From positions 1 to 45,553 of IMG/VR virus record IMGVR_UViG_3300037961_002511: DNA of 45,553 nt; one strand, given 5' to 3'. The translations under genes were made by a program, and so were the position numbers. Shown here in pieces: positions 7,991-32,200 of this stretch. How positions within the stretch are numbered: position 1 is the stretch's first letter; each line of letters opens with the position of its first letter. The notes below the pieces were generated by a model. It was not told the DNA's origin. It saw nothing but the letters and a program-made list of their open reading frames with translations, and did not search any database. The DNA is from a virus.

Positions 7991-10315
7991 CTAACTCTCC
8001 ATATCCTCAGTCAACGCACTGAACATATCTTCGTTCTCGTTTGCTGTACCCTCAGGTGTTACAGAGTTCATTAGATTTGTTTTCGCATCATTAAGTCTAG
8101 CTTTCATTAAGCTAGCACTTGCATCAGCACGATTAGTAATCTTGTCTAATTCGCCACTGAATTTTTCAACTTCTAAACGTTTCTTAGCATGTACTTCTTC
8201 ACGTTCAGCAGTTTGTAGGTCTCCTTTGACCTTCTTTAATTCTTGTTGTAATTGTTCATTTTGTGCCATTAATTGTCTCATTTGTCCACTTCTTTCAAGC
8301 ACACCTTCTACATCTACAAGTTCTGATTTCTTAAGAACTTCTACTTGATCAATTAACCCTAACTGATACAACTCTTGATAAGTTTGTAATAAAGCCATTC
8401 TATTTGAAGGTAATGTAGATCCTGCAACTACTTGTATATCATATTTACCAACACCTACATCATGAAATCTTTTAACTGTTCCATCGTCCATTTGCTGATA
8501 AAAATTAATTCTTTCTTCTTTTAATTCTCCATTAGGCTGTAAAAGTCTAATAACTTTTTCTTCAGTATATAGTTGTTGAATTAACGGTATAGATACTTTT
8601 GCAACTTGATTTAAAAAGTTTTCTATATCATCTCTACGAGATTTAATTCTACGTTGTCCAAATTCGTCAACTACCAAGGTACCTCTATAAGTTGATGGTG
8701 CATTAGTAGCTCCACCTTGCATTAGCTCAAAAATACCAAATCCGTATTCTAAATCATATTTAGCATCAGATTCATTTTTATATAGCTCATTAGGCAATGG
8801 AACTGGACCAGCAACGATCGGTGCACCTAGCTCAGCGTCAAACTCAATAACACTGGTTCCAGCTTTACTCCACTCCGTCTCTATTTGACGAAGATCTGCC
8901 GAGCCTCTAGGTATTAACAATTTTACATTTGTACTTGTACTTGCGTGTGCAATAATAAGAGAACGTATTTTATTTATATATTCTTGTAATGGTCTATATA
9001 GTCTTACGTCAGAATCAGGATACGGATTTCTGTGATGTACGTTCATCATAGGAATTATAGGATAATCTTCCGTAGGTAGCATTCTTGTATATAATAAAGA
9101 TTCACCAACAGAAACTGTTTGTTGTATACATGGCTTTAAAATATTATTTACTTTAATTCTTCCTGTTCCTATTAATTCTTCTTTTGACATAGGTATAATT
9201 TGAACAGTAGAACCAGGGATGCCATCTTCATTCTCTACTCCTGGAACAATTTCTACTTCTTGTTGTATAGGTTGACCTAAATCATCAAACTTTGGATCAG
9301 GTAGTCTAAAATGGAATACATGTCCAACGTCTACAATTTGTTGTGCTAATATAGCAATACCAACGTCATCATGTATTATCTCTTCTTCTCCAGTAACTTT
9401 TCTAACTATAAAATAATAATTATCTAAATATCCTGAATATTCTTCTTCATTAAATACAAATTCTTCATTAGCAAAAGGTTCGTATACATGAAAATAAGGA
9501 CTAGATACTCTTCTATATCTTTCTATATATTTACGTTTTGTATGTTTTCTTCCATGTTCGTCTGAATAAAACATTTGTCCTTCTGTAGCAGCAAGATCGG
9601 TAGCTGGAGTTTCATCTTCATCTAATGCTGATGGATTTGATTCTAATATAATATCCATAAATGAAGGATACACATTAGCAGCTACTTCGTCTGTCATATG
9701 CTTGCATACTATAATATTTGAAGCATCTCTAGCATAAGGGTCTTTAGAGTTAGGATCAATATACACGTCTAAAGGATTTATAGATTTTAATAATACTTCT
9801 CCTTTACCATGATCTCTACCTGGATCTTGGTAAACTTGAAATACTCCCATACCTCCTACGTAATAATCGTCAATAGTTTTTTTAAGTTCTTCGTCTCCAG
9901 AAGATACATACCATACATGTTGGAATAAGTCTGAAAAGACTTTTGCTGTTTTAGAGTCAGAGTCTTCTTTAGCAGTAGCTCTGAATTGTGGTGAATTATA
10001 TGTTAATAAAGATTTAGCTGTTTCTACGATTGGATGTATTCTATTTACGACTATTGGTGCTTGTCCACGTGCTTCTAATGTTTCTTTTTCTTCATGTGAC
10101 CATTGTGCACCAGCTCTAAATTCTATAGCTTCTTGATATTTTTGTGCCCATATTTGTCGAGCAGATTGATATTCATCGAATAATTCTAATGTTTCTTGCA
10201 CTTCTGGATGAGTAGTTTCATCCTGAATAGATCCTCTTTGAAAGCCAAAGGTGTAATCTTTGTCAAGAGGATTCTGTAGTCTGTTCGTTGCTAGGTTTTT
10301 TAGTTTTTTTGCCAT
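7991..10315 (-). CDS. Portal protein (P22-like family)
   Basis: The product has 774 residues, in the usual size range for P22-type portals. Typical elements are an early segment FRAGAQWSHEEKETLEARGQ with RIHPIVETAKSLL, then YYVGGMGVFQVYQDPGRDHG and INPLDVYIDPNSKDPYARDA. A long helix around RPLQEYINKIRSLIIAHAS and a C-terminal coiled coil (QNEQLQQELKKVKGDLQTAE) follow. The protein forms the dodecameric DNA gate at one capsid vertex and docks the terminase. It follows the terminase genes in the standard packaging order. A 54-codon frame overlaps its start by 53 nt. Confidence 0.85.
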   Translation of the reverse strand: MAKKLKNLATNRLQNPLDKDYTFGFQRGSIQDETTHPEVQETLELFDEYQSARQIWAQKYQEAIEFRAGAQWSHEEKETLEARGQAPIVVNRIHPIVETAKSLLTYNSPQFRATAKEDSDSKTAKVFSDLFQHVWYVSSGDEELKKTIDDYYVGGMGVFQVYQDPGRDHGKGEVLLKSINPLDVYIDPNSKDPYARDASNIIVCKHMTDEVAANVYPSFMDIILESNPSALDEDETPATDLAATEGQMFYSDEHGRKHTKRKYIERYRRVSSPYFHVYEPFANEEFVFNEEEYSGYLDNYYFIVRKVTGEEEIIHDDVGIAILAQQIVDVGHVFHFRLPDPKFDDLGQPIQQEVEIVPGVENEDGIPGSTVQIIPMSKEELIGTGRIKVNNILKPCIQQTVSVGESLLYTRMLPTEDYPIIPMMNVHHRNPYPDSDVRLYRPLQEYINKIRSLIIAHASTSTNVKLLIPRGSADLRQIETEWSKAGTSVIEFDAELGAPIVAGPVPLPNELYKNESDAKYDLEYGFGIFELMQGGATNAPSTYRGTLVVDEFGQRRIKSRRDDIENFLNQVAKVSIPLIQQLYTEEKVIRLLQPNGELKEERINFYQQMDDGTVKRFHDVGVGKYDIQVVAGSTLPSNRMALLQTYQELYQLGLIDQVEVLKKSELVDVEGVLERSGQMRQLMAQNEQLQQELKKVKGDLQTAEREEVHAKKRLEVEKFSGELDKITNRADASASLMKARLNDAKTNLMNSVTPEGTANENEDMFSALTEDMES

Positions 10316-15473: not shown

Positions 15474-15962
15474 ATGAATACTAATGGATTACCAGACAAT
15501 AACGAATTAATAATTCAATACTTGTCTACTTCAATATACAAAGTCATTAATGACACAGGTATCAAGAATATCTGGAAAGATATATTTAGCCTAAAAAACA
15601 ACGAGATAAGCGTTACATTAGGTGAAAAAGATTATCCAACTAATTTTAACAACTTAGTTAGATATATAATGAATAAGCATAAGGCCAAACTTGACAAAGG
15701 CAAAGAAGAATACGACGAGTTTGTGCCTATTACAATGTGTGAGTGTAAACCCACATCACGTGATAACCTAGCAGAAGCCTTAGATGAACTGCTAGACATG
15801 AATGTATACTTAGCAGCTGCTATACTGGGCGATAAGTATACTGAGATACGACCACTGTTAGAGAAAGTACTAGATTCGTTGTTGACTAATACTTTGAACA
15901 TAACAGTGTTGTATAAATCAACACAACAACGACTAACAGAAGAAGGAGATAACAATGGATAA
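15474..15962 (+). CDS. 162-residue early protein, possibly MazG-like
   Basis: The product is helical. The segment NKHKAKLDKGKEEYDEFVPI followed by DNLAEALDELLDMNVYLAAA resembles the KG..Y and EExxD-type helices of MazG/dUTPase-like nucleotide pyrophosphohydrolases, with Glu/Asp residues in the right sort of arrangement. If so it would hydrolyse nucleotide triphosphates. The resemblance covers only about 50 residues and could be chance. The gene has an AAGGAG site and ends 8 nt inside the ubiquitin-like gene, implying coupling to that cassette. Confidence 0.55.
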   Translation: MNTNGLPDNNELIIQYLSTSIYKVINDTGIKNIWKDIFSLKNNEISVTLGEKDYPTNFNNLVRYIMNKHKAKLDKGKEEYDEFVPITMCECKPTSRDNLAEALDELLDMNVYLAAAILGDKYTEIRPLLEKVLDSLLTNTLNITVLYKSTQQRLTEEGDNNG

Positions 15963-16242
15963 TGTTGTTATTAAAGTAATGTTGCCAGGTGCTCAGCACT
16001 TCTCAACATTAGATCTACCTGCAGAAGTTATGAATCTTAGAACTCTTAAGAGTCATTTAGCTTCACAAGGTAACGACAGGGTTGCTAACTCAGTAGTCTA
16101 TGTCGGAGATGTACAAGCTTTAGATGATGCTAAAGCATTTACTGATTATGAATTAACAGACAATACGTTGTATGTTACATTTGTTAATGAGAACAAAACT
16201 GGTGGTCTTATTAGATTCTACCAAGAGTTGTTGTCACAGTAA
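15955..16242 (+). CDS. Ubiquitin-like / MoaD-ThiS-type beta-grasp protein with internal Gly-Gly
   Basis: The product has 95 residues. The strand order fits a beta grasp: VVIKVMLPG, then FSTLDLPAEV, helix LRTLKSHLASQG, strand NSVVYVGD, and the final strand LYVTFVNENKTGG. Gly83-Gly84 sits where ubiquitin-like proteins end, but 11 more residues (LIRFYQELLSQ) follow. Maturation by a protease, plausibly the JAMM enzyme encoded 2.5 kb downstream, would expose the Gly-Gly for activation by the E1-like enzyme. The AGAAGGAGA ribosome site is strong. The fold call is by eye; a sulfur carrier or a protein modifier are both possible. Confidence 0.65.
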   Translation: MDNVVIKVMLPGAQHFSTLDLPAEVMNLRTLKSHLASQGNDRVANSVVYVGDVQALDDAKAFTDYELTDNTLYVTFVNENKTGGLIRFYQELLSQ

Positions 16243-16258
16243 ATAAGTAGCAAGTAGG

Positions 16259-16290
16259 GTGGTAAGTTGATTAGGGGCATGACTTACCAC
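16259..16290 (+). promoter_or_regulatory. Stem-loop between ubiquitin-like gene and 791-residue gene
   Basis: GTGGTAAGT (16259-16267) pairs perfectly with ACTTACCAC (16282-16290), with a 14-nt loop. No T run follows directly. It may cap the 3' end of the ubiquitin-like message so that this small protein is made in excess over downstream genes. Confidence 0.55.
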
Positions 16291-16340
16291 ACCCTTGCAT
16301 AGTAGTTAATTTAAAAAAAGATAGTAGGAGAAAACAAAAT

Positions 16341-18716
16341 ATGAACCTAATTGAAAGATTCAAGCAAGGTGGGATTGATACCTACTCATATAGTATGGAC
16401 ACTATGAAAAGAATGTTTACAGGTGAACAAATATCTAAAAGCATACTTGATGGTCCACAAAAAATACTTATGGAAAAAATCAATCAATTCAATAATGATT
16501 ACATACGTACACGTTATTTAAATAGAAACAGAAGCATGTTAGAACCATTAGAAGATATTGGCTTAACTGACAAGCTTAATTGGAAACGTGGTGTCACTAA
16601 TACACTAGAAAAACTATTTGTTGAAAGAATACTACAGTTTGGCAAAGGTGGTAGTGTAGACTTAAAGTTTGTGAGAAGACCAAACAATAGTGCATACCTA
16701 GGTGATCGAGCACGTAATGACTTAGATAGTGTCTGTAGAAGTCTAAAAAGAGTTAAAGACATGAAAGGTGCTTGGAATGATACTGAAGAACGTAAAAAGC
16801 TAGAAGCATTTATTGACTTGTGCTTAGATACGTTCTTTAAAAACATTGATGAAGCAAATAATTACTTAAAAACTGTAAAAAGTATGCAATTTCTACCATA
16901 CATTGTTAGCCTAAGAACAGGAAACAAAGAAAACATGATAGAAACGCCTACTGGATACAGAACTGGTAAGTATTGGAGTGCATTAGATACATATAGTAGT
17001 TTACATAGAGAGTTAATTGTAGCATTACATATTAACAAACCTGATGTTAAGTATTATAATAGAGATAGAGAACACGTAGCAGATATTAGATCTGCACCTG
17101 TTACTTTGTTGTTTAGGTATCACATGTCATCTATGGTACAATGGTGGGTTAATTTATACTTTAACTTGTACAAAGAAGATGGTAGTAACAATGAAATGAT
17201 TGCTAATCAATTAGTTACAAACAATAGATCAATACCTAGAATGTTAAATGCAGATCCGTCAGTTTTGTGGGAAGGTGCTACTTACAGAGGTAGCCGTGGA
17301 AGTGATGAGCTTAACATAGAATACTTTAGAAACAGAAAAGCATTAGATGTTTCGTCTATATACCACAATTACATGAATTCTACTGAGTATCCTTACATAG
17401 GTAGTCAAGATGGTTCTGGTTCTAAATACACATCTCTAAGTACAAAAGGATTTATGGAAAAACTATTTAAAGACGTAGATAGTGACATAGATTACAGGCT
17501 TTCTCAAAGACTAATTGAGAAAAAGTATGGACATAGAGGCAGAAACCATGAACATATATATAGATTGCAACATGAGTTACCTAGAAATCAATGTTTTGGT
17601 GACTTAAATGGTGAGATATATAACTGTGCTTCAACAGGTAACTTTATAGGTATGGTACCTTTAATATCTAAATGGCAACATTACATAGAAGGTAGATCTA
17701 ATCCACTACAAGGATTAAATAATTTACCACACATAATAACTACTGACTGGGACAGAACTATGATTAGAAAAGTCGTAGGAAGTATAGATATTATGCGTAA
17801 AAACCACTTACTACAAAATGGTTTATGTTTCCAGTTAAATCACAATGTATACTATAGTGACTTTATTAATCATGAAGCAGCATTTGGTGACATTGTAAGT
17901 ATGTTAGATTACCACGCAGGAAATAACAATGAATTTATGTTTGATGCTAGAAACTGTGTAAGTATGATAAAACATCAGTATCAAAAGTATGCTAATCAAC
18001 AAGTTCCTCAGGACTTCGTAGAAACTACTAACTTTGATGGTTACTTTAATTACTCATATGTAAGAAGTAAACGATACGAGTCAAACAATATTGGATTGCA
18101 CTCTGATAATCCAGAATGTATGTACAATACAGAAGGATTTAATGAACGATTTGTAACAGAGTTTTGTTTAGAAGCATACGATGAAAACTATGTTAAGGAA
18201 AAACAAAGAAGTCTAAAAGACATGAAATTAGCACTTGCAAACAAGTTAACTTCAGAGATGGAAGACAAAGACGAAGCTTATGATGAATACTTAAAAGAGC
18301 TTCGTAGAATAATGTCTCCTGAAACATTTCCTGTTCAAGATAGATACGGCAGAAATGCAATGTTAACGTTGTTAGATTACTACACTTCTTGTAAACAAAC
18401 ATTAGATGAAATACACGAAGATGGTTTATTGACTGAAGAACACTCAAGTTCTTGGGAATCTATAAATAGATTTCACGATATAAACTATGATAAGTACGAA
18501 ACATTTGAAATGTTTATAAGTGAAGTAATTAGATGTTATGTAATACCTAACATAGAAATTGTTGAAGAGCAAGTATCGCAAGATGTAGTAAGTGATACTA
18601 TTGATGCTTTAATAGAACAACAAGAAGATAATTCTACCAACGGAAGATACGACTTTAGTACAGAAGAAGGTAGAGCATTATGGGCTCAACACATTAGGAA
18701 CAGGAGGTCTAGATGA
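16341..18716 (+). CDS. 791-residue early protein of unknown function in the ubiquitin-like cassette
   Basis: This is the longest plus-strand gene. It opens MNLIERFKQGGIDTYSYSMD and is soluble and charged, with no membrane segment or P-loop. A His/Cys-rich patch spans about residues 398-418 (H398, H403, H405, H411, C418) and could bind metal. About ten Cys are scattered along the length, for example NPECMYNTEG and TEFCLEAY. The C-terminal 180 residues are acidic and helical. It lies between the ubiquitin-like and JAMM genes, overlapping the latter by four bases (ATGA), so it is probably a partner, ligase-like factor or target of that system. No known E2 or E3 signature is visible. Confidence 0.65.
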   Translation: MNLIERFKQGGIDTYSYSMDTMKRMFTGEQISKSILDGPQKILMEKINQFNNDYIRTRYLNRNRSMLEPLEDIGLTDKLNWKRGVTNTLEKLFVERILQFGKGGSVDLKFVRRPNNSAYLGDRARNDLDSVCRSLKRVKDMKGAWNDTEERKKLEAFIDLCLDTFFKNIDEANNYLKTVKSMQFLPYIVSLRTGNKENMIETPTGYRTGKYWSALDTYSSLHRELIVALHINKPDVKYYNRDREHVADIRSAPVTLLFRYHMSSMVQWWVNLYFNLYKEDGSNNEMIANQLVTNNRSIPRMLNADPSVLWEGATYRGSRGSDELNIEYFRNRKALDVSSIYHNYMNSTEYPYIGSQDGSGSKYTSLSTKGFMEKLFKDVDSDIDYRLSQRLIEKKYGHRGRNHEHIYRLQHELPRNQCFGDLNGEIYNCASTGNFIGMVPLISKWQHYIEGRSNPLQGLNNLPHIITTDWDRTMIRKVVGSIDIMRKNHLLQNGLCFQLNHNVYYSDFINHEAAFGDIVSMLDYHAGNNNEFMFDARNCVSMIKHQYQKYANQQVPQDFVETTNFDGYFNYSYVRSKRYESNNIGLHSDNPECMYNTEGFNERFVTEFCLEAYDENYVKEKQRSLKDMKLALANKLTSEMEDKDEAYDEYLKELRRIMSPETFPVQDRYGRNAMLTLLDYYTSCKQTLDEIHEDGLLTEEHSSSWESINRFHDINYDKYETFEMFISEVIRCYVIPNIEIVEEQVSQDVVSDTIDALIEQQEDNSTNGRYDFSTEEGRALWAQHIRNRRSR

Positions 18717-19573
18717 GCGAGTTTAATATGAGTGGTAAAGATTGGGATAAAATCATTAACTACTCACACATAGCATGGGAGAAAGATAAATCTGAAATTG
18801 GTGGCATGATGATTGCTACTAAGGAAGGTAATGACTTTCTACTCAGTGATCCAGTTATACTAAAACAGCAAGTTAGTGGAAGTAATACTGTACTAGATAA
18901 AGAAGCTTTAGCACAATATTATGGTAAAACAGCAATTAAGAATGCTGGTAAAGACATAATATTTGTATGGTGGCATAGTCATCATACTATGGCAGCTTTC
19001 TGGTCAGGCACTGACTTAGCAACTATTGACACTACTAAATCTGGTAGTGTCAGTATGTCTTTAGTAGTTAACTTGAAAGAAGAGTACTTATTTAGAGTGA
19101 ACTTATGGGAACCAATAAAGGCACATAAAGATGTTAGTATTAACATTATAAGGCCTGAACGTAAAATACCTAAATCACTTTATAACGAGTATGATAAACT
19201 AGTTAGTGATATAGTAGTCACTAGGAAAGTAAATAAACCTAAGTTCAAGTATCAATACAACAGAACATACAACCATCACTACAAATGGAACGACTTTAAT
19301 AGTTTTCCTGACTTAAGTGATGATGAATATGTAGATGTAGAAGCTAAGGTAGATGATATGCTATCTTTGTTTTATGTAGGTGAATTAGGTTACAAAAAGC
19401 TTAAGAAGCAAATTACTACTCTAAATAATAAACTTGCTAAAGATGATAGTGAGTTAAGAGTTGAATTGCCTGCTAAGCCTATATTAGAAAGTGTAATAAA
19501 AAGTGGATACTTCGACAGACACGGAGCTTCTAAGTTAATAGTGTGTAATACTCAAGGAAAATTACCATTATGA
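18713..19573 (+). CDS. JAMM/MPN+ metalloprotease (JAB domain), deubiquitinase-like
   Basis: The product has 286 residues. The complete JAMM signature is present: Glu28 in KSEIGGMM, then HSH at residues 88-90 (WWHSHHTMAAFWSGTD), Ser98 and Asp101. That is E...HxH-x7-S-x2-D with no substitution. The enzyme class uses zinc to cut isopeptide bonds or precursor tails after Gly-Gly. The C-terminal half (about 150-286) is charged and unlike known JAMM extensions. AGGAGG precedes ATG 18713, which overlaps the upstream stop by four bases, and the next gene overlaps its stop the same way. Likely roles are maturing the ubiquitin-like precursor and removing it from targets. It is not in the tail region, unlike lambda-K-type JAB proteins. 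Confidence 0.88.
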   Translation: MSEFNMSGKDWDKIINYSHIAWEKDKSEIGGMMIATKEGNDFLLSDPVILKQQVSGSNTVLDKEALAQYYGKTAIKNAGKDIIFVWWHSHHTMAAFWSGTDLATIDTTKSGSVSMSLVVNLKEEYLFRVNLWEPIKAHKDVSINIIRPERKIPKSLYNEYDKLVSDIVVTRKVNKPKFKYQYNRTYNHHYKWNDFNSFPDLSDDEYVDVEAKVDDMLSLFYVGELGYKKLKKQITTLNNKLAKDDSELRVELPAKPILESVIKSGYFDRHGASKLIVCNTQGKLPL

Positions 19574-19848
19574 AAGAAACATTAGCATACGATAAAAATC
19601 GTAATCCACTTAAACAAACAAAGTACCAATCTAAAGAATGGCCATTCAAAACAAAGAAATCTGCTACAAAAGCATTTGCTGAGTTTGAAAAGATCTATGG
19701 TCGTGGATGGTACTATTACGAGGGTTGGAATCCTGCTACATACAAGGAATTACCTTGGATAACAAGATTTCACCCTGATTACAAACTGTATTTAGCTTAT
19801 AATAGGAGGAAAAAGCGTGAAAGACAGGTACGAAGGGATAGTAAATAA
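19570..19848 (+). CDS. 92-residue basic protein between JAMM and E1-like genes
   Basis: The product is rich in Lys, Arg, Tyr and Trp (MKETLAYDKNRNPLKQTKYQ...). A helical part with aromatics (AFAEFEKIYGRGWYYYEGW) is followed by a strongly basic C-terminus (RRKKRERQVRRDSK). There is no Cys, so it cannot act as a thioester-forming E2. It overlaps the JAMM stop by four bases and the E1-like start by 32. Tight coupling implies a role in the same system, perhaps as an adaptor or nucleic-acid-binding subunit (inference). Confidence 0.6.
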   Translation: MKETLAYDKNRNPLKQTKYQSKEWPFKTKKSATKAFAEFEKIYGRGWYYYEGWNPATYKELPWITRFHPDYKLYLAYNRRKKRERQVRRDSK

Positions 19849-20494
19849 CTATCACAAATATACCTATCATATACTAGGTTGCGGTGCTATTGGTAGTGCC
19901 GCAGCTACTCAACTAGTTAGGATGGGTGCAACCAACATAGTCTTGTATGATATGGACACAGTTGGTGTAGAGAACATTGGTGTATCACAGTACAATACCA
20001 AGGATATTGGATTATTCAAAACAGCAGCACTAACAGAACATTTGCTATTTATTAATAGTGATATAGACGTAGAACAAAAGTGTGGAAGATTTGATGCAAG
20101 TATGTGGTCTCCAAGACAAAATGCTACAAACGATGTAGTAATATTAGGTTTTGATAGTATGGAAGCTAGAAAAGAAGCTGCCGAAATAATACTAAAGAAT
20201 GATAATCCAGCAGCTATGATAGATGGTAGAATGGGTGCTGAACATTATCACCAAATAGTACTTGAAAAACCAACATTAAGTAAGTATATTAAGCACTGGT
20301 ATAGTGACGAAGATGGTGATCCAGAACCATGTAATGCAAAAGCTACAAGCTATTGTAGTAACATGTCTGGTAGTTTTATCTCAGACACTATAAAGAAATT
20401 ACTTACGGATAGTGTTTACTATAAAGAGTTATCATTTCACTTTCCTAGCTTAACAATGCGTAGAGCAGGATTAGTAGATAATAGTAAACAATAG
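19817..20494 (+). CDS. E1/ThiF-like adenylyltransferase
   Basis: The product has 225 residues from a GTG start with AGGAGG seven bases upstream. The Rossmann motif GCGAIG is at 21-26, with acidic residues at the end of strand 2 (YDMDTV, D45/D47). Asn53 and Lys68 sit in the ATP-binding positions, and Asp113 is in ILGFDSMEAR. A candidate thioester Cys lies in PEPCNAKATSYC (C172, alternatively C180). It lacks the C-terminal zinc ribbon and extra domains of MoeB or Uba1, so it is a minimal version. It should adenylate the C-terminal Gly of the nearby ubiquitin-like protein. The inverted repeat after its stop may end the cassette. Confidence 0.85.
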   Translation: MKDRYEGIVNNYHKYTYHILGCGAIGSAAATQLVRMGATNIVLYDMDTVGVENIGVSQYNTKDIGLFKTAALTEHLLFINSDIDVEQKCGRFDASMWSPRQNATNDVVILGFDSMEARKEAAEIILKNDNPAAMIDGRMGAEHYHQIVLEKPTLSKYIKHWYSDEDGDPEPCNAKATSYCSNMSGSFISDTIKKLLTDSVYYKELSFHFPSLTMRRAGLVDNSKQ

Positions 20495-21325: not shown

Positions 21326-21904
21326 ATGAAATTTAAAGGTAAAGAATATACTGAAGTAAAGGATAGATTGTTTGGATTCTTATCTGAATATCCCCAAGCA
21401 ACTATTAAAACAAAACTGATTTCAGTAGATCAGATCATAGACTCACCAAGCGGAGAACAATGTAATGAATATATTGTACGTGCTAAGGTGATTCCTAATC
21501 CATTACAAGAACCAGAAATTTATTACACAGGCTATGCAGCTGAACGTGATAATACTGGTTTTGTAAATAAGACATCAGCATTAGAAAACTGTGAAACATC
21601 AGCTGTTGGTAGAGCATTAGCTTTTGCTGGATTTGGTGGTGACTTTGCTATAGCTTCTAAAGAAGAAGTTGACAATGCAAAGACAGCTGCTAAAAAATCA
21701 GCAGTAACAGTAGATATGCTTTCTAAGTTAGATGCTTTGTCTAAGAGAGTTAAATCACATATAGGTGAAGAACATTATCGTGTTTATGTAGAACGTAGAT
21801 CTAATGGATATTACGATACTAAAGTTAGATACAATAAAACAATGGATTTCTTTACAAAATCTATACCTACAGAAAGTGAGGCTACAAATGTCAAACAAGG
21901 ATAA
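21326..21904 (+). CDS. Single-strand annealing protein (ERF/Rad52-like)
   Basis: The product has 192 residues. The signature ALENCETSAVGRALAFAGFG is characteristic of phage annealing proteins of the ERF and related families, placed after a beta core (YIVRAKVIPNPLQEPEIYYT) and followed by a helical, less conserved tail. It anneals complementary single strands during recombination-linked replication. The adjacent gene order (annealer, small gene, SSB) is typical of phage recombination modules. AAAGGAA precedes ATG 21326. The exact subfamily cannot be fixed by eye. Confidence 0.7.
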   Translation: MKFKGKEYTEVKDRLFGFLSEYPQATIKTKLISVDQIIDSPSGEQCNEYIVRAKVIPNPLQEPEIYYTGYAAERDNTGFVNKTSALENCETSAVGRALAFAGFGGDFAIASKEEVDNAKTAAKKSAVTVDMLSKLDALSKRVKSHIGEEHYRVYVERRSNGYYDTKVRYNKTMDFFTKSIPTESEATNVKQG

Positions 21905-22163
21905 AATGTATACTTACACTGTAGAGAGTTCTAAACCTGGAAAGTGTGAAACTTTCTACAATAACGGTCATTTCGTACTTATGAATATACTATTAACAGA
22001 TAATGGTACTATTGATATACAATCAAACTTAGAAGAATTTGAAACATTCTTAGAAGATATGAATCACGGAATGATTGAAGCTGCAAATGAGAAAAACAGA
22101 GATCATGCAATGGCTAACATGGATGCAGATGTTAGTGCAGATCGTAATATGTTAGGAGAATAA
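21888..22163 (+). CDS. 91-residue protein between annealer and SSB genes
   Basis: ATG 21888 (MSNKDKMYTYTVESS...) is preferred because it couples to the annealer stop with a 17-nt overlap; in-frame upstream ATGs lie deep inside that gene. The product is acidic, with a beta-like start, then a helical segment NLEEFETFLEDMNHGMIEAA and an Asp/Asn/Met-rich tail. It probably works with the annealing protein or SSB. No family was recognised. Confidence 0.6.
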   Translation: MSNKDKMYTYTVESSKPGKCETFYNNGHFVLMNILLTDNGTIDIQSNLEEFETFLEDMNHGMIEAANEKNRDHAMANMDADVSADRNMLGE

Positions 22164-22164
22164 C

Positions 22165-22707
22165 ATGGCAATTAGTGGTACAAAAGTTGCATCAAACAAG
22201 ACAATTAAAAATTATTTTGTTAATGAATGCAAGATCACAGATGCAGAAGTCATGGATAGTCAATACACTGACATGAGCTTGAAGTTACAATTAGAAGATA
22301 AGAACAACGGGTACACATATACCTGCTTTGTTAACCAAAACTTCGAGAAAGATCATGCTGGTGTAGTTACAGATATGAAATATCCAACTGACTTAAACAC
22401 ACTATTCTTAGCAGCAGGAACAGATTTAAATGTTTCTGATGCAGGAGTATTAGCAACAAAATCTTTAGAAGGTTTAGTTGATAAAGAAGTAGCATGTATT
22501 ACATACAGTTCTACTGGTAAATACAAACGTAATACATGGGGTGTTGTTTCTAGCCTTAGTAAGAAAGATGACTTAGAATCTCAGTTCGTAAAACAACTAG
22601 AAAAAGGTTATCCTAAAGACTATCAAAAACCTACAGTACAAGCAAAAGGATCAGATACAGTTGTAGTATCTGGTGAACAAGTTGCTGTAGATGATTTACC
22701 ATTTTAA
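22165..22707 (+). CDS. Single-stranded DNA-binding protein
   Basis: The product has 180 residues. The C-terminus ends VAVDDLPF, matching the acidic-hydrophobic tip (DDxPF) by which bacterial and phage SSBs recruit partners. The first 130 residues alternate strands compatible with an OB fold (SLKLQLEDKNNGYTYTCFV and KEVACITYSSTGKYKRNTWG), then a linker. It protects single-stranded DNA for replication and annealing. AGGAGAATAAC precedes ATG 22165. It lies in the annealer/SSB/primase-helicase group. Confidence 0.75.
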   Translation: MAISGTKVASNKTIKNYFVNECKITDAEVMDSQYTDMSLKLQLEDKNNGYTYTCFVNQNFEKDHAGVVTDMKYPTDLNTLFLAAGTDLNVSDAGVLATKSLEGLVDKEVACITYSSTGKYKRNTWGVVSSLSKKDDLESQFVKQLEKGYPKDYQKPTVQAKGSDTVVVSGEQVAVDDLPF

Positions 22708-22967
22708 TGACTATTGAAAACATAGTAATTAATTGGATCAAAAGTCGAGCAAGATCCAATCCTAATTTCTATAGTTACGAATTCGAAGAAAGTATACCAG
22801 CTTACGGAAGACTTACAGAACAAAAAGTACATACTGCAAGTTCTTATTCTAGGTCTTTTAGAAAGATACGTGAAAGTAATACTTTAGATAAGCATGGTAT
22901 TAAATTAACCGAAATACAACATGAAAACAATAGTAAGGTAAAAGGATGGAAAATAGAAACACTGTAA
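22707..22967 (+). CDS. 86-residue replication-cluster protein
   Basis: The product MTIENIVINWIKSRARSNPN... is basic and mostly helical. A possible winged-helix-like pattern appears (YEFEESIPAYGRLTEQ and ASSYSRSFRKIRESNTL), ending with a strand KVKGWKIETL. Its start shares one base with the SSB stop, and the primase-helicase starts 22 nt before its end. Coupling suggests a loader or accessory for the helicase, but I cannot assign a family. Confidence 0.5.
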   Translation: MTIENIVINWIKSRARSNPNFYSYEFEESIPAYGRLTEQKVHTASSYSRSFRKIRESNTLDKHGIKLTEIQHENNSKVKGWKIETL

Positions 22968-24739
22968 TAGAAGTGATCCAAGGTGATTTAAGTAATAGAA
23001 ATAAAGTATCTACATTAGACATCTATAACAAGATTGAACAAAAGAACATGTTTGGCAAAGAAATGTATAGGTCATACTATTCTTTTGACTCAACTTTTGG
23101 TGACTACGTATTAACTAACAAAACAGTTAAAGGTTTTGACGGTTTAGCTTATGCAGATACTATTACTATTGACTTAGACAAAGGGGAACACAGTGATGAT
23201 AAGTTCCAAGAGTACCTTAGGTACTGTTTAAATGAGTTGTTTGACTTTGATATTAGAAGTGAAGATATAAATTTGTGGTTTAGTGGTAAAGGTTATCACA
23301 TTGAATTACAAAACGTGTTTGGGTTTCAGCCCAGTAAAAACCTTCACACTAAAGTTAAATCTACAATGCAAGAATACTTTACATTTGGTGATAACATTTA
23401 TGACAAAACTAGAATTATACGTTCTAAGTGGTCATTAAATCCAAAAACTAAATTGTACAAAGTATTTATACCATTACAACACATTTGGGACTTATCATAC
23501 GAAGAGATATGTAAGATAGCAAAGTCTAAAAAGACTTATGATTCTTACACTAAATCTCATGAAGGTTTCTACAATACATTAAATGTAGATAAAACAGTAG
23601 AACCTTATTTACAGAAATACATCATTACTTCACCACAAGTTGTTCAATCCAACATAACCAAGACAGGGGATACTACATCTGTTGTTACTTGTGTACAACA
23701 TATCTTTAATGAAGGACCTACTCAGGGATCTAGAAATACAAAGATAATGCGTATGTCAAGTAGTTACAAGAGAGCAGGTATTCCCTATCTTGTAACCTTA
23801 AATGGTATGATAAATTGGGCAGATGGACAGCTTGATGCAGCTGAAGTAACTAGAACAGTTAGTAATATATACGAAGAAAATTACATGTATGGATGTCAAG
23901 ATATTATTATGGCAGAATACTGTGATCCAAAATGTATTCACTTTAAAAGAAAAGATTACATGATGGACATTAAAGATGTTATTGCGTTAGAAGACTTCTT
24001 TAAAGAGTATATAGAAAATGATATGTCTAAGAAATCTGTAGACATGAAAGATGTATTTGACTGTGACAGTTTTGTATTTAAACCAGGTGAATTAGTAGTA
24101 GTTAGTGGTGATACAGGTATGGGTAAATCAGCTTTTGTGCAAAATATAGTTACAAAAGCACAAAAAGATTGCTTGTTCTTGTCACTAGAAATGAATGAAA
24201 TACTAACATTTCGTAGATTTGTACAAATAGCTATGAAACAAAATGCACAATGGGTGATCAATCAATACAAAAGTGATCCAAGTGTATCGTTTCAAGAGTT
24301 ATTAGGACACATCAAAATTGTTACTATAGCACCAGATATAGAAGCTGTTAAAAAGATAGTCGCACAACATGAACCTAATATTCTAGTTGTAGACACTACT
24401 GATGAATTACAAGCAAGTGGTAATAGATCATCAGATATAGAAAAGCAAAACAATATTATAGATGGATTGAAAGCAATAGCTCAAAGAAATCATACTATTG
24501 TTATTGCAGTACATCACGTTAATAAAGTCAGTGCAAGTCAGGGTGTAATTGGATTACACTCATTAAAAGGCTCTACTAACGTTGTACAAAAAGCAGATAA
24601 AGTACTTGTAGTTAAGGGAAATCGTAACGAAATTCATAGAGTCATTACTTCTGAGAAATCAAGAGATGAAGGTAGATTTGAATTGATTGCAGAATTTGAC
24701 TATAACACTTTTACATTTAATAAGAAAATAATAGTATAA
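22946..24739 (+). CDS. Primase-helicase fusion (AEP/PrimPol-like plus DnaB/RecA-like)
   Basis: The product has 597 residues. The N-terminal part has archaeo-eukaryotic-primase-like motifs: DLD at 76-78 (TITIDLDKG) and SGKGYHI at 113-119, followed by arginines in RIIRSKW. A middle part contains a Cys segment (YCDPKCIHF). The C-terminal ATPase has Walker A GDTGMGKS at 388-395, a FLSLEM motif, Walker B with Asp483 (LVVDTTD) and AVHHVNK, as in DnaB/KaiC-type helicases. It should prime and unwind the fork. Since no DNA polymerase gene was recognised, it must recruit host polymerase, or its AEP domain may itself synthesise DNA (inference). Confidence 0.82.
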   Translation: MENRNTVIEVIQGDLSNRNKVSTLDIYNKIEQKNMFGKEMYRSYYSFDSTFGDYVLTNKTVKGFDGLAYADTITIDLDKGEHSDDKFQEYLRYCLNELFDFDIRSEDINLWFSGKGYHIELQNVFGFQPSKNLHTKVKSTMQEYFTFGDNIYDKTRIIRSKWSLNPKTKLYKVFIPLQHIWDLSYEEICKIAKSKKTYDSYTKSHEGFYNTLNVDKTVEPYLQKYIITSPQVVQSNITKTGDTTSVVTCVQHIFNEGPTQGSRNTKIMRMSSSYKRAGIPYLVTLNGMINWADGQLDAAEVTRTVSNIYEENYMYGCQDIIMAEYCDPKCIHFKRKDYMMDIKDVIALEDFFKEYIENDMSKKSVDMKDVFDCDSFVFKPGELVVVSGDTGMGKSAFVQNIVTKAQKDCLFLSLEMNEILTFRRFVQIAMKQNAQWVINQYKSDPSVSFQELLGHIKIVTIAPDIEAVKKIVAQHEPNILVVDTTDELQASGNRSSDIEKQNNIIDGLKAIAQRNHTIVIAVHHVNKVSASQGVIGLHSLKGSTNVVQKADKVLVVKGNRNEIHRVITSEKSRDEGRFELIAEFDYNTFTFNKKIIV

Positions 24740-25639: not shown

Positions 25640-25708
25640 ATGGAATTAATATTTGTATTTATACTATCAGCTACAATACTTTGGGCAGTAAGTAGGTACT
25701 TAAAATGA
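25640..25708 (+). CDS. 22-residue hydrophobic peptide, probable single membrane span
   Basis: ATG 25640 follows AAGGAG at good spacing. The product MELIFVFILSATILWAVSRY plus LK is almost entirely a transmembrane helix with a basic C-terminal end. Its stop overlaps the GroES-like start (ATGA), so translation of the two is coupled. A membrane role such as a host-envelope modulator or small lysis accessory is possible; it may also serve mainly as a leader peptide. Confidence 0.55.
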   Translation: MELIFVFILSATILWAVSRYLK

Positions 25709-25965
25709 AACCCTTACGTAATGAAGTTATAGTTAAAGAGATAGTCAAAGAATCTAAAACTGATTCAGGTATTATATTAGAAGACGACTATCACACATCT
25801 AGAGATAAAACAATTACTGCTACAGTTACACACGTTGCAGATGCAGTTAGATCTGTAAAAGTAAATGATACAGTACTTATTTATTCTGGTGGTTACAAAC
25901 AAAATATCAATAATGAGGAATTAGTGTTTATGGACGAATCTGAAATACTAGCTGTATTACTATGA
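25705..25965 (+). CDS. GroES-like co-chaperonin (Cpn10)
   Basis: The product has 86 residues, close to the 95 or so of GroES. The start MKPLRNEVIVKEIVKESKTD aligns with the Cpn10 opening RPLxDRVxVK. SGIIL stands in the mobile loop where GroES has GGIVL, the motif that binds GroEL. The end NNEELVFMDESEILAVLL matches the Cpn10 finish (EEVLIMSESDILAIVE). The roof-loop region is short. Phage co-chaperonins such as T4 gp31 redirect host GroEL to fold the capsid protein, and that role is likely here. It overlaps both neighbours. Confidence 0.85.
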   Translation: MKPLRNEVIVKEIVKESKTDSGIILEDDYHTSRDKTITATVTHVADAVRSVKVNDTVLIYSGGYKQNINNEELVFMDESEILAVLL

Positions 25966-26258: not shown

Positions 26259-29200
26259 TTAAACGTCTTCAGCCTCTAAATTAGCTTCTATTTCGTCTAA
26301 TTCAGTCTGTGCTTCAATTTGATCACGTCTTAAACTATGTATTCTATGTAATGGTATACCAGTCATGAAGTCTACAGCCATAGCAGGACTTTGATACGTT
26401 CTATATAAATCTCTACCTAATCTACCAAATGGAAAATATGTTGCAAGTTGGAACTTATAAAAGTTTTCATAATCACCATTCAATATAGAAGTTATAGGAG
26501 GCAATATAAATCTTGCAACTGGTGGTGTAACAATTTGTAATGGTGCTAACACTTTACTAGGATATTGATTAAAGAAAGCACGATCACGTTCTTCTGTATC
26601 ACCAAACATTAATTGTGCAGTATCTTGCATCCATGACATTGGTGGTGATAAAGAATATTCAAATATACTAGCTACAAATATGTTAGCCATGGCTAATGCA
26701 AATAAATCAAAAGATACTTGTCTTTGAAATCTTTTACTTGCTATCTTAGTGTAATCAAAACCTACATCTTTAGCATTTCTGTATATATCCATTCTTCTTC
26801 TAATACTATTCCAAGCATAAGGCTGGAATCTAGTTAGTACTCTACCTAAAGAAGTATTAGCAAAATTAGGTCTTTCAGTAGCTTGATACAAGAACTGTGA
26901 AGCTTTAACACCTTCAAGAGAAAGTTTTATTAATCCAGGATTATTGAAAGACATTTTACTAGAAAATCCATCAGGAGTATTTAAAGTATTTTGTAAGTGA
27001 AATATCATGTGTGATAAGAATGTAGTACCTCTTAAGTGTCTTTCTGACTCTCTCATAAAGAAAGCACCCATATCTACAATAGACTCGTCAACTTTATATT
27101 CACGAATAAGATCCATCATAGTAGCATCTCTTAGTCTATCTCTACTTGTTTTAGTAACCATGTCATAACCAGAGTTTCTAGCATCCATAAGTCTTTCACC
27201 AAACTCTTTTACTACCTTAAATGCATTCTTACGACCAAATACTTTTTCTATAGCTACTAATTGCAACTGAGTAGTATCAAATACACCAACACTACCATCC
27301 ATCCAATTGAATATATCTTCTCTGGTTGTCATAGTTTTCTGTTCAATTTTTTTAGTGTCTGCATTAAAAAACTCATATTTAGCAGTTTCCATTTGTCCAG
27401 TATCTTTGTTATACTCTCTAAATATGTTATTTAACATCCACTCAGTATTAAAAGACTTTCTTACAGGATTTAAACCAACATCTGTAATTAAATTAGTATA
27501 ACCACCTATAAAATTAGTAATTGGTGTTTTAGGTGCTGACAACAAACTAATTAATTCGTACTTACCTTCTAAATTACTTAAGTATCTTAAGCCCTCATTC
27601 ACTTGAGTTCTTTTTTGTGCAGGATCACTAGACAATTCACCAAATAACTTTGCACCAAATGCATCATTAATAGTTTCCATTTTACGACCTACAGCATCAT
27701 CACTAGTCATGTGGTATAAACTACCATATTTACCAGTTGTGTTGATTTGTGACAATAGCCGCTTCGCATTACGATTTATCTGCTTTATATACTCTGCATT
27801 GGCTTTAGTAACATTACCTCTATTTGACAAAAGGATGTTCGTCTTCTTTTGTGGAGATAACTCTACTGCTTCTCTAAAATCATAAACTAAATCTAATTCT
27901 GCTTTTAATAAATTTAAACCTTTCGTTGAAAATTTATTATCTATAAATCTTTGATATAAAGGTATATGTTTTTCTTGTATTCCATGTGTCTGTAAAGATC
28001 TATGTAAACTTAAACCCATCATGTTTAATCCAGCATCTCTTAAATACCCAGACCAACCTAATGCATTAATATCATTTTCTACATTATTTACTTTATCAAA
28101 TCTTTTTACAATAAGTTCAAGATTAATACCAGTAGTATTTGTTAAATGAGATTTTACTAAACCACCAGCATATCTTCTTAATGCTTCTACATCCAATCTA
28201 TAAAAAGGCATAACATAAGGACCTCTTTTATGCATATTACGATATGTATAATCTCCAATATATCTACTATCAGAAAGTTTATCTCTAGATAATAAATCAT
28301 TTACTGTTATTTCATTAGCCATTTGTCCTTCTAATGCTGAGTTCATAAACTCTCTATTTTGTAAAGAAAGTTTTTCTGCTCTATATAGTTGTTTAGCCTC
28401 TGTAAAATTCAAAGGTCTACCTCTTTCTAAATCAGTAATTAACATTCTATTTGCAATATGTTCAGGTAGTTGAGATTTATCTGTTATAGTTTCCATTTCA
28501 GCATTTACTTTTCTAGTTAATTCTCTTTCAATTTTTTGAGCATTTTTAGAAATATCAGTATGTCCTACTCTAGGAAAATAACCTTCAGTAACTTTGTTTT
28601 GAAACAATTCTTTATAACTAGAATTTTTATTTAATCTATTTATAACTCTTTGTTTTAATTCTTTCTTTATTTTTGTAGGTAATTTTTCTGGTTTTGATAA
28701 GTCATAATTTTTATAAATTCCTTGCATTTCATCTCTTAATTTTAAATGATGTTTAAAAAATAACATATCATTATAAGATGGCATTAAAAACTGTGAAATC
28801 TCTCTGTTGTTAAATTGTCCTTCTATACTAGATCTTTTTAAACCACCTTCTCTAGTAGTATATGCTCCTTGATAATTCATAATAGAATCAAAGAAAGCTT
28901 TATATCTATCTTCTCTAAATATTCCAGTATTTTTATCTAAAAATATTTCTTCAAGTTTCATCATTTCAAATTCTCTACCAAATGTTTTATCTGTTTTGAG
29001 TCTTTTAAATTCTTGCCCTGGTTTCCAAAGTTTAAAATCTTTATTCCAAGTACCTATGTGTAAAAAAGTTTCTTTAATATTTTTATGTCTAGATGCTATA
29101 TAATTATCGTATACCCAATCTGTAAATGTTTTAATATCTTTTTTTAATTGTTGTGAAACAAATACACTAGGTTTAACATTTTTACCTTTAAATTCTATTC

Positions 29201-32200
29201 TAGCTCCAGATTCATCTAACTTCTGAATTAATGCTTTAGATTCATTGTATTTTGTTTTTATATAATTTTTACTTTCATAATCAATTTTTTCACCAGCTGG
29301 ATATTTACCATTATTCCATTCTAAACTATTTACAGCATGTTCTTCAAGTAATTTTCTATGTTCTTGTAACGTAGCATCATCTTTTGTTAAATATTTAAAC
29401 CAACCAGCATGTACTTTTTCTATATTATCTCTAGCTGCTTTTGTAATAGTGTCTGTAAAGTCTACATGATTTTTCATTAAATGTAATGGTGACATAGGTT
29501 GTTTCATATATTCTGCTTTAATTTCACCGTTAGCCATCATTTTATTTTCTAGTATAGGTTGTAATTCTAATTCACTCATAAATCCTAATCTATCACCTAC
29601 TATGTCATAAAAATACATATGGTCTCTACCACGTGGTTTTTCTTTAAACTTACCATCTTTAGTTATTAAATCTTTCATAGGAGTAAAAGATCTTTTTAAT
29701 TGTCCTATAAAATTAACCATATCTTTACTATCCATAGTAGAAATATCTCTCATTACACCTTCACCTTTTTTAGTAAATGCTGCAAAATAATAATCTAAAT
29801 TAGGTAATACTTGAGGATATTCTTCTAATATTTTTCTAAATTCTTTTAATACAATTTCATTTTCAGGAGTAGTAGGCTCTAATATATTTTTATCTAATCT
29901 TTCTAGGTATTTATGTTGATCTTTAAAAACTCTTTTAATTGTTTTAACTGCTTGTTCTTTTTCAGTATTAGGATCTCGTTTACTTTCTTTAAACTTTTTA
30001 GCTAAATCTTTACGTGTTTCATTAGCTATTTGTCTTTTAGATGTTTTAACACCAAATAAACCATCTACATCACTTATTATAGTTTCACCTATTTTTTTAC
30101 CACTGCTATCGTTAATAACTTTAATTTTTACTTTTTGCTTTTGTATATCAGCTTCAACTTCTTTAGCTTTTTTACGAACTATTTTAGGTTGATTCATTGT
30201 ATTAATATCAAGTATTTGATCTCCAGAAAAACTTTCTGTTAATGCTTCTATGTATGCTTGCGTTTTTTTAGGTACACGCATTTTTTTATTCATAGCCTCT
30301 AGGCCTTGTTCTATAATACCTTTTTTTAAATCTAATAAAGCTTGTCTATTTTCTGGAGTTACAACTTTTGATCTGTCAAAAAACGGAACCCTATTGTATA
30401 ATATAGCTTCTGCTTGTTCTCTTTTTCTTATCCATCTTTGCATCAATTCTGGATTTTGAGTAGCTCCCATTTTATTTGTATCATAATCTTTGTAAGAAAC
30501 TTCAACTACTTGATCTTTATTTAAATTTTTAGTTGTTCCTTCTATAAATCTATTAGCATCACTTATTATTTTAAACAACTGTTCTGTTGTTTTATTTTTC
30601 ATTTCTTTAAATCTAAATCTAGGATTTGCTGATAAATATGAATCTATAATTAAATCAATATCTTTTATAAAAGGTTTATATGCTGGAACTTTTCTATATC
30701 TAGCACGTATTTTTAATAGTTCTTGATTAACCCATTTATAGTCTAATTTACCTCTTTCTACATTAAAGCCACTTCTATCTCTAAATACATTAGCACTATA
30801 GTAAAAAGATTCTTTAATACTATTTACTTGGGATTGTATATCTTTTACTAATGTAAATGCTTCATCAACGCTTAGTTCTGTCATTCTGCTTTTACCTACT
30901 TTAGTAATAAATACATCAGATACATAATCAGCTACATTTAAATCTAAAGCATTGTGAAAATGTTGCTCTATGTTTCTAGTAGGAGTTAATGCTAAGGTGT
31001 TATATTTTTTATCACCAATAGCTTTTAATTCTTTAAATAAATGATTACCAGGTCTTTTTAAAGAATATATAGCATCTATTTCATTTCTATAACCAGGTAT
31101 TAATCCATACTTATCATAGTATTTACTATTTAATAATCTAGTATTTAATTCTGTAGTCATTTGTAATACAAAATCATATGGCTCTATAGCATTAGTATTT
31201 AAATGATCAAAACCTCTAGAAATAGATTTAATATAATCGAAAGACTGTATTCCCCAATCCATTCTAGAAGAAAGTTTTTGTGCTACATTATATGTTTGCA
31301 AGTCGTATCTAAAGTCTGCATTATTTACAAACTCATTTATAACTCTAGGTGAATTGTTTATTTCAGCAATAGTAGGTTGACCGTAAAGTAAATGATATGT
31401 CTCTGCTAAATTTTCTAATTCTCTTATTTTTGTTATATCAATATATTTAGTTTTCTTTTCTCTTGTTACTGGCTTTGTTCTTCTAGAAGAGGTTGCATCT
31501 CCCCATGAAATTTCTGATAATTTACTTACATTTTCAAAAACACCTTTTTCATTTTGAACTTGTAATTGAAAATATCTACTCCAAGTTAATTCACTTAATG
31601 TAAAATTGTCTGGTACATTTAAATATTTAGGACTATCAGCATATCCGTTTTTAGCTTTTAAAGATTCTACTTCAAATTGCTTTAAAAGTTTAAGGTAATC
31701 TTGTATATTAGTAGAGTTCATAATATTACCTTCTCCGTCTTTTAAAACTATTCTATGTTTTTTAATTCCATCGTAATTTTTGTTAGTGTTTACTTCTACT
31801 AACATATAAGGAACTTCTCTTGAAGGTTCTGTAATTTTAGTATTAATAATTGCATCCATAACTTTTATTTGTCTATCTAATGCATTTACTGCACCACCCA
31901 TAGCTTCTTTACCTATAAATGCACTTCTACCAGCCTCTATTCTTTTATATGGATCTATAATGTCTTTTAAAACGTCATTAGATGTTTTTGGTGCATACTC
32001 TACAAAGTATCCTAAATCTGTTAAAAACTTAGGAGGCGTTTCTAAATTAATTAAATTACCTTTTTCATCTCTTAAATAATCTCTATTATTTCTAAATTCT
32101 TTATTTAATTCTTTAGGTATATTATAATGTACAAATGCTTCGTCAAAATCATTATCTGCACCATCCATGTAAAACTTTTCTTTTGCATTTACATATATAC

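Follow-up and report, generated by a model that had tools for sequence, protein, structure and literature searches.

Among prokaryotes, ubiquitin-like conjugation has been described in archaea, in plasmids and integrative elements, and in host defences against phages. Type 6d of Iyer et al. 2006 combines genes for a ubiquitin-like protein (Ubl), an alpha-helical protein, an E2-like protein, a JAB metallopeptidase and an E1 activating enzyme (PMC1779556), and the PRTRC operons of plasmids, with the typical order Ubl(C)-F-B(E2-like)-A(JAB)-ThiF(E1), are apparently of this type. Here we analyze a related gene set in the 45,553-base IMG/VR virus record IMGVR_UViG_3300037961_002511 (positions 1 to 45,553, hereafter the window), where genes for a Ubl, a large protein that we call BIG, a JAB protein and an E1 are encoded in this order on the plus strand. 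The four genes probably constitute a single phage operon that modifies proteins reversibly with a ubiquitin-like tag; the set itself is a solid observation, and its reading as a conjugation system is likely. In the open-access literature on phage Ubl/E1/JAB proteins, PRTRC and bacterial Ubl systems (subscription journals and preprints being outside this scope), we found no phage E1-Ubl-JAB operon described.

PHROG matches show that the window belongs to a tailed phage: on the minus strand they comprise the major head protein, portal, large terminase subunit and lysozyme, and among the plus-strand products are a primase/helicase of the DnaB type, a RusA-like resolvase and a GroES-like protein. 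The best cultured relative of its terminase shows approximately 27% identity, and none is close. The operon lies in the plus-strand replication arm and contains the genes for the Ubl (15955-16242, 95 amino acids), BIG (16341-18716, 791 amino acids), JAB (18713-19573, 286 amino acids) and E1 (19817-20494, 225 amino acids, GTG start), with a small accessory gene, X92 (19570-19848, 92 amino acids), between JAB and E1. BIG and JAB overlap by 4 bp, JAB and X92 by 4 bp, and X92 and E1 by 32 bp. A previous sequence-only reading of the window gave the coordinates of the Ubl, JAB, X92 and E1 genes and the overlap of the last three correctly, and its proposal that the phage genome encodes a Ubl/E1/JAB cassette is borne out by fold, sequence and deep conservation.

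The relative gene order is as in the PRTRC operons, with a single gene in place of F and B. Immediately upstream of JAB, PRTRC operons encode the E2-like protein B with its 'NI..G.VCLG' motif, and the window encodes BIG. Furthermore, the PRTRC E1 and JAB profiles are related to those of the phage family (hhalign 2.4e-12 and 1.7e-6, respectively), and both sets are hosted by mobile elements. However, the phage JAB and E1 score far under the PRTRC_A and PRTRC_ThiF cut-offs, the phage Ubl has no Prok_Ub match, and BIG matches neither Prok-E2_D nor alpha-hel2; as positive controls, PRTRC_C matches Prok_Ub and PRTRC_F matches alpha-hel2. No PRTRC ParB or protein E was seen with the phage operon, and hhalign comparisons of the phage Ubl with PRTRC protein C and with crAss-like Ubl candidates were not significant.

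The closest E1 and JAB that we found are encoded by crAss-like phages of the Steigviridae (DAC15, cr111_1, cr126_1, cr128_1, cr106_1, cr85_1) and by Flavobacterium phage FpV4 (Fipvunavirus), the sister loci L085-L089, L113 and L114. The view, taken in the sequence-only reading, that Ubl-E1-JAB sets belong mainly to hosts and plasmids therefore needs qualifying. The E1 proteins of these phages form a common clade with the window E1 (hhalign E 6e-36), with the motifs DGR[ML]..E..Q, FD.M..R and C-x-x-K-x-T in both, and their JAB is related to the window JAB family (hhalign 1.6e-10). In their replication region E1 comes after JAB, as here, a conserved cysteine motif, 'MHSH...CLG', is encoded by the gene that precedes JAB, and most of these loci encode a Ubl-looking N-terminal domain further upstream that ends in NK..[KR]SG or KSGG. 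They differ from the window operon in that their Ubl has a long extension and mostly ends in KSGA instead of GG, and in that the middle gene, of approximately 400 codons, has no detectable homology to BIG beyond the C-x-G motif. In GenBank these genes are named 'thiamine biosynthesis protein', the name given to the E1, or hypothetical; we reject the former name as an automatic ThiF label.

The defence systems CBASS (Cap2/Cap3), Bil and Bub also employ an E1 and a JAB on a Ubl or a Ubl-like C-terminus, and structures of Cap2 and BubCD match our E1 profile, but the phage set sits in a phage replication region. In type II CBASS the E1 is fused to an E2, whereas the phage E1 is fused to neither an E2 nor the JAB. 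BilA of the Bil system consists of two tandem Ubl domains (PMC11354881), in contrast to the single-domain phage Ubl. Finally, TAPI (Ubl) and TAPK (JAB-NlpC) of the tailed phage lambda likewise pair a Ubl with a JAB, but the present operon has in addition an E1 and a cysteine-bearing fourth protein, has no NlpC/P60 domain and lies outside the tail cluster. We rejected an assignment to PRTRC, CBASS, Bil or lambda TAPI/TAPK, since for each of them the phage operon lacks a defining feature that was tested.

Conservation of the operon

IMG/VR was searched with JAB and with an E1 profile, yielding 266 and 387 relatives, respectively, and loci were fetched for the best 80 matches, a selection that favours near relatives. 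The E1-led loci were reduced to 64 distinct E1 sequences, and some contigs are common to the JAB-led and E1-led sets. JAB was found directly upstream of E1 in 59 of 59 distinct E1 loci with room to tell. For 41 of the distinct E1 loci 4.2 kb or more of upstream sequence is available; all 41 contain BIG and 40 contain the Ubl, and the order in the E1-led loci is invariably Ubl, BIG, JAB, E1. The JAB-led loci agree with this linkage, except for L056 and L061, in which the Ubl gene (8564-8770 and 8555-8761, respectively) follows E1 instead of heading the operon and encodes a KKGG end.

Comparison with the nearest relative gave pN/pS values of 0.31 for E1, 0.36 for the Ubl, 0.47 for JAB and 0.67 for BIG, indicating purifying selection, although these values are rough with synonymous sites near saturation. 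Conservation of the operon in dozens of distinct loci, together with purifying selection, excludes that the arrangement has arisen by chance. BIG is a constant member of this four-gene operon. In the sequence-only reading the 791-codon gene had been skipped and the cassette was said to have no E2. This statement is unsafe, because BIG is never missing from the operon and has a cysteine that is invariant, which makes it an E2 candidate, albeit an unproven one. A search of 50,697 GenBank phage records revealed no member of exactly this operon family, and there were no cultured relatives of the Ubl or BIG among the GenBank phages.

Active sites and folds of E1, JAB and Ubl

The window E1, a stand-alone adenylation domain, matches Pfam ThiF with E=1.7e-20, and ThiF is also the best NCBIfam model. 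The E1 profile matches the structures of UBA6, UBA5, MccB, ThiF, MoeB, Cap2 and BubCD. The nucleotide-binding loop GCGAIG (19877-19894) and the residues D45, D47, K68, D113 and C172 are 100% conserved in alignments of 45-70 relatives, and the same catalytic residues are conserved in 44-45 sequences outside the alignments. C172 (codon 20330-20332) is invariant, and its alignment column is that of the one cysteine conserved in the crAss-like and PRTRC E1s; we presume that it is the thioester cysteine. C180 is likewise invariant in the family, in a column where nearly all crAss-like and PRTRC E1s have no cysteine. The only other cysteine conserved in the E1 family is C22, and there are no conserved CxxC zinc pairs of the kind found in ThiF/MoeB-type E1s.

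In the JAB protein the JAMM residues E28 (18794-18796) and H88, H90, S98 and D101 of the H88-S-H90...S98-x-x-D101 motif (18974-19015) are also 100% conserved in the alignments, and they are kept in the sequences outside the alignments, except for a gap at E28 in two JABs. The catalytic residues named in the sequence-only reading are thus all present in both enzymes. The Pfam model Prok-JAB matched the window protein at 7.6e-5, with 23 bits against a cut-off of 25, and the sole significant solved-structure match of the JAB family profile was the archaeal Rpn11-like protein 6fjv (7e-5). The window JAB protein had no NlpC/P60 match.

The window Ubl alone matched no Pfam or PHROG family, and Pfam ThiS was matched by 12 of its 39 aligned relatives (best 1.9e-5). 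The AlphaFold2 model of the Ubl (predicted local distance difference test, pLDDT, 79) has the strand-strand-helix-strands arrangement of a beta-grasp domain, in line with the fold that the sequence-only reading had ascribed to it. When this model was searched with Foldseek, the top matches were ubiquitin, FAT10 and NEDD8 (E 4e-3, probability 1.0), and all solved-structure matches listed were ubiquitin-fold proteins or complexes containing one, while VIA ranked a mycobacterial molybdopterin-synthase chain at the top (Z 9.2, 2.5 Å over 75 residues). Together these predictions support a beta-grasp fold. The Ubl relatives are single domains of 66-115 amino acids.

The KTGG motif of the window Ubl, with G83-G84 at 16201-16206, is followed by an 11-residue tail, LIRFYQELLSQ (16207-16239). 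To avoid selecting relatives by the Gly-Gly motif itself, conservation of the motif was examined with a core hidden Markov model that ends before the motif columns and was not trained on them. All of the 12 relatives recovered outside the training set carry K[TK]GG. KxGG is present in 44 of the 45 Ubls of the E1-led set, and the remaining one ends in MKGGC. The tail after GG has 0-11 residues in 41 of these 44 proteins, with no tail at all in 18 of them, and is longer in three (31, 117 and 126 residues). JAB is intact also in the loci whose Ubl already ends at GG. Trimming alone is therefore insufficient as a function for JAB, which argues for deconjugation and points to an activity of JAB beyond maturation of the Ubl.

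BIG and the proposed function of the operon

Among aligned relatives BIG varies between 427 and 835 amino acids, with a mean column identity of 13%. It has a helical N-terminal part and a middle domain with an invariant cysteine, Cys418 (codon 17592-17594), in a C-x-G context. Cys418 is invariant in 48 aligned sequences and in 39 more, and Pro455 is invariant in those 39. Most members have the pattern HP[YF]I...[VI]C-x-[GDS]...W...T-x-P-[LY]-N around Cys418, which recalls the HPN...ICLD...PLN pattern of E2 enzymes, and PRTRC protein B carries 'NI..G.VCLG...THPN'. When BIG was compared with the crAss-like middle gene by hhalign, the alignment was confined to the C-x-G motif. In most BIG relatives, for example those in L011, L028 and L041, the C-terminal part also contains a cluster of four cysteines (C...YC....C..R..C..Y), which may bind zinc. 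The window BIG has lost most of this cluster, and one of the cysteine positions is threonine 562.

The proteins probably work together as follows. Where the Ubl has a short tail behind Gly84, JAB would trim it off to expose the carboxylate presumed to be used in conjugation. E1 would then adenylate the exposed glycine with ATP and take the Ubl as a thioester on Cys172, from where the Ubl would move to Cys418 of BIG. BIG, acting as an E2-like or combined E2/E3 enzyme, would join the Ubl to a target amine, and JAB would take it off again. Since the operon lies in the replication arm, next to a primase/helicase, and the crAss-like set is likewise found in the replication region of its phages, the targets are probably phage replisome proteins or host proteins met early in infection. 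In its fullest form this reading makes the operon a complete E1-E2-deconjugase cascade within the phage replication machinery, in which BIG represents a new Ubl-conjugating family without detectable sequence kinship to known E2s and tags replisome or host factors while the phage infects its host; we put this forward tentatively, as a possibility that falls somewhat short of even chances.

Several results weigh against conjugation, most of them concerning BIG. Scanning 48 whole BIG proteins against Pfam, NCBIfam and PDB, and 68 BIG core regions against Pfam and PDB, gave nothing credible. With PRTRC_B, hhalign aligned only the C-x-G motif, at a probability of 6.6%, which is above 60 of 60 column shuffles. 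The AlphaFold2 model of the 791-residue protein is mediocre (pLDDT 64) and poor outside the helical N-terminal part and one middle region, and neither Foldseek nor VIA found a convincing fold match with this poor whole-protein model. An E2 fold thus had no Pfam, NCBIfam, PDB, Foldseek or VIA match, and we keep BIG as an E2 candidate, not as an E2; its proposed role is the weakest link of the conjugation reading. Prok-E2_D had no match in five bacterial genomes that contain weak relatives of JAB, but this result is uninformative, since the controls were equally silent. For the Ubl, the Foldseek E-values are modest, and the protein is as similar to the ThiS/MoaD sulfur carriers as to ubiquitin.

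The last point bears on the question that the sequence-only reading had left between conjugation and sulfur transfer; its suggestions were that the set might modify proteins of the host, disarm a Ubl-based defence or produce a thiocarboxylate. If the Ubl were a sulfur carrier, E1 would make a ThiS/MoaD/CysO-like thiocarboxylate that donates its sulfur to a cofactor, nucleobase or amino acid, and JAB could act as Mec does, on a CysO-like adduct. The ThiS matches of the Ubl family, the molybdopterin-synthase chain at the top of the VIA ranking and ThiF as the best NCBIfam model for E1 all fit such a role. Yet the window proteins that were scanned included no recognisable sulfurtransferase, ThiG, MoaE or cysteine synthase, although host enzymes could serve, and the absence of CxxC pairs from E1, the Rpn11-like structure match of JAB and the constant presence of BIG with its invariant cysteine all speak for conjugation, as does the retention of JAB beside Ubls that end at GG. 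The match of the E1 profile to the conjugating E1s UBA6, UBA5 and Cap2 points in the same direction. Thus, of the two activities conjugation is favoured, and a sulfur-carrier role is less likely; on its own we consider it improbable.

A role in counter-defence, where the set, perhaps mainly JAB, strips or poisons the Ubl-based immunity of the host (CBASS Cap2/Cap3, Bil, Bub) or the Ubl tags and inactivates defence proteins, is a somewhat better candidate, though still an unlikely one, and as a role it could be compatible with the conjugation mechanism. Host Ubl systems do act against phages (PMC10097602, PMC10286901), and BIG is the fastest evolving of the four proteins, as might be expected of an adaptor in an arms race. 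However, JAB alone would be enough to strip host conjugates, and still E1 and a Ubl with GG are retained wherever the sequence permits a test; moreover, the operon lies beside replication genes, both here and in the crAss-like phages, and not in a variable anti-defence region. It is very improbable that the operon is a non-conjugating assembly module like lambda TAPI/TAPK, in which the Ubl and JAB only process each other and E1 is a relic or a different enzyme. Pairs of Ubl and JAB are indeed known from the tail clusters of lambdoid phages (PMC1779556), but here E1 is constant with a fully conserved active site, the JAB protein is without an NlpC/P60 match, and the operon is situated among plus-strand replication genes, apart from the minus-strand head genes.

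If the conjugation reading is correct, bacterial viruses run a protein-tagging pathway of their own, in hundreds of uncultured phage contigs and, as the sister set, in cultured Bacteroides and Flavobacterium phages. Since a lysine precedes T-G-G, tryptic peptides of modified proteins should carry a Thr-Gly-Gly remnant, and the cultured relatives make removal of the genes possible in laboratory hosts. BIG may add a further branch of E2-like enzymes, with a bearing on the origin of the ubiquitin system.

Accessory and neighbouring genes

The X92 gene between JAB and E1 is found in the closest relatives only. Its product resembles small proteins (KYDKN.NP...KKYG.WW.F....KTWI..FRK) encoded 5' of the Ubl in other loci (L007, L008, L018), and X92 seems to be a mobile accessory gene. 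At the other end of the operon a gene of 162 codons (15474-15962) overlaps the start of the Ubl gene and recurs upstream of the operon in relatives. The protein has a conserved stretch, GA.KY..E.PI......NRDNL.E..EE..DA, and no family match; perhaps it has a MazG-like all-alpha fold.

Downstream of E1, co-directional genes extend from 21326 to 24739, the last of which encodes the DnaB-like primase/helicase (22946-24739). On the minus strand a reading frame of 3513 codons occupies 26259-36800, with no PHROG match in its scanned 1,113-residue C-terminal part. The GroES-like co-chaperonin is encoded at 25705-25965 (PHROG 3188, E 2.4e-12).

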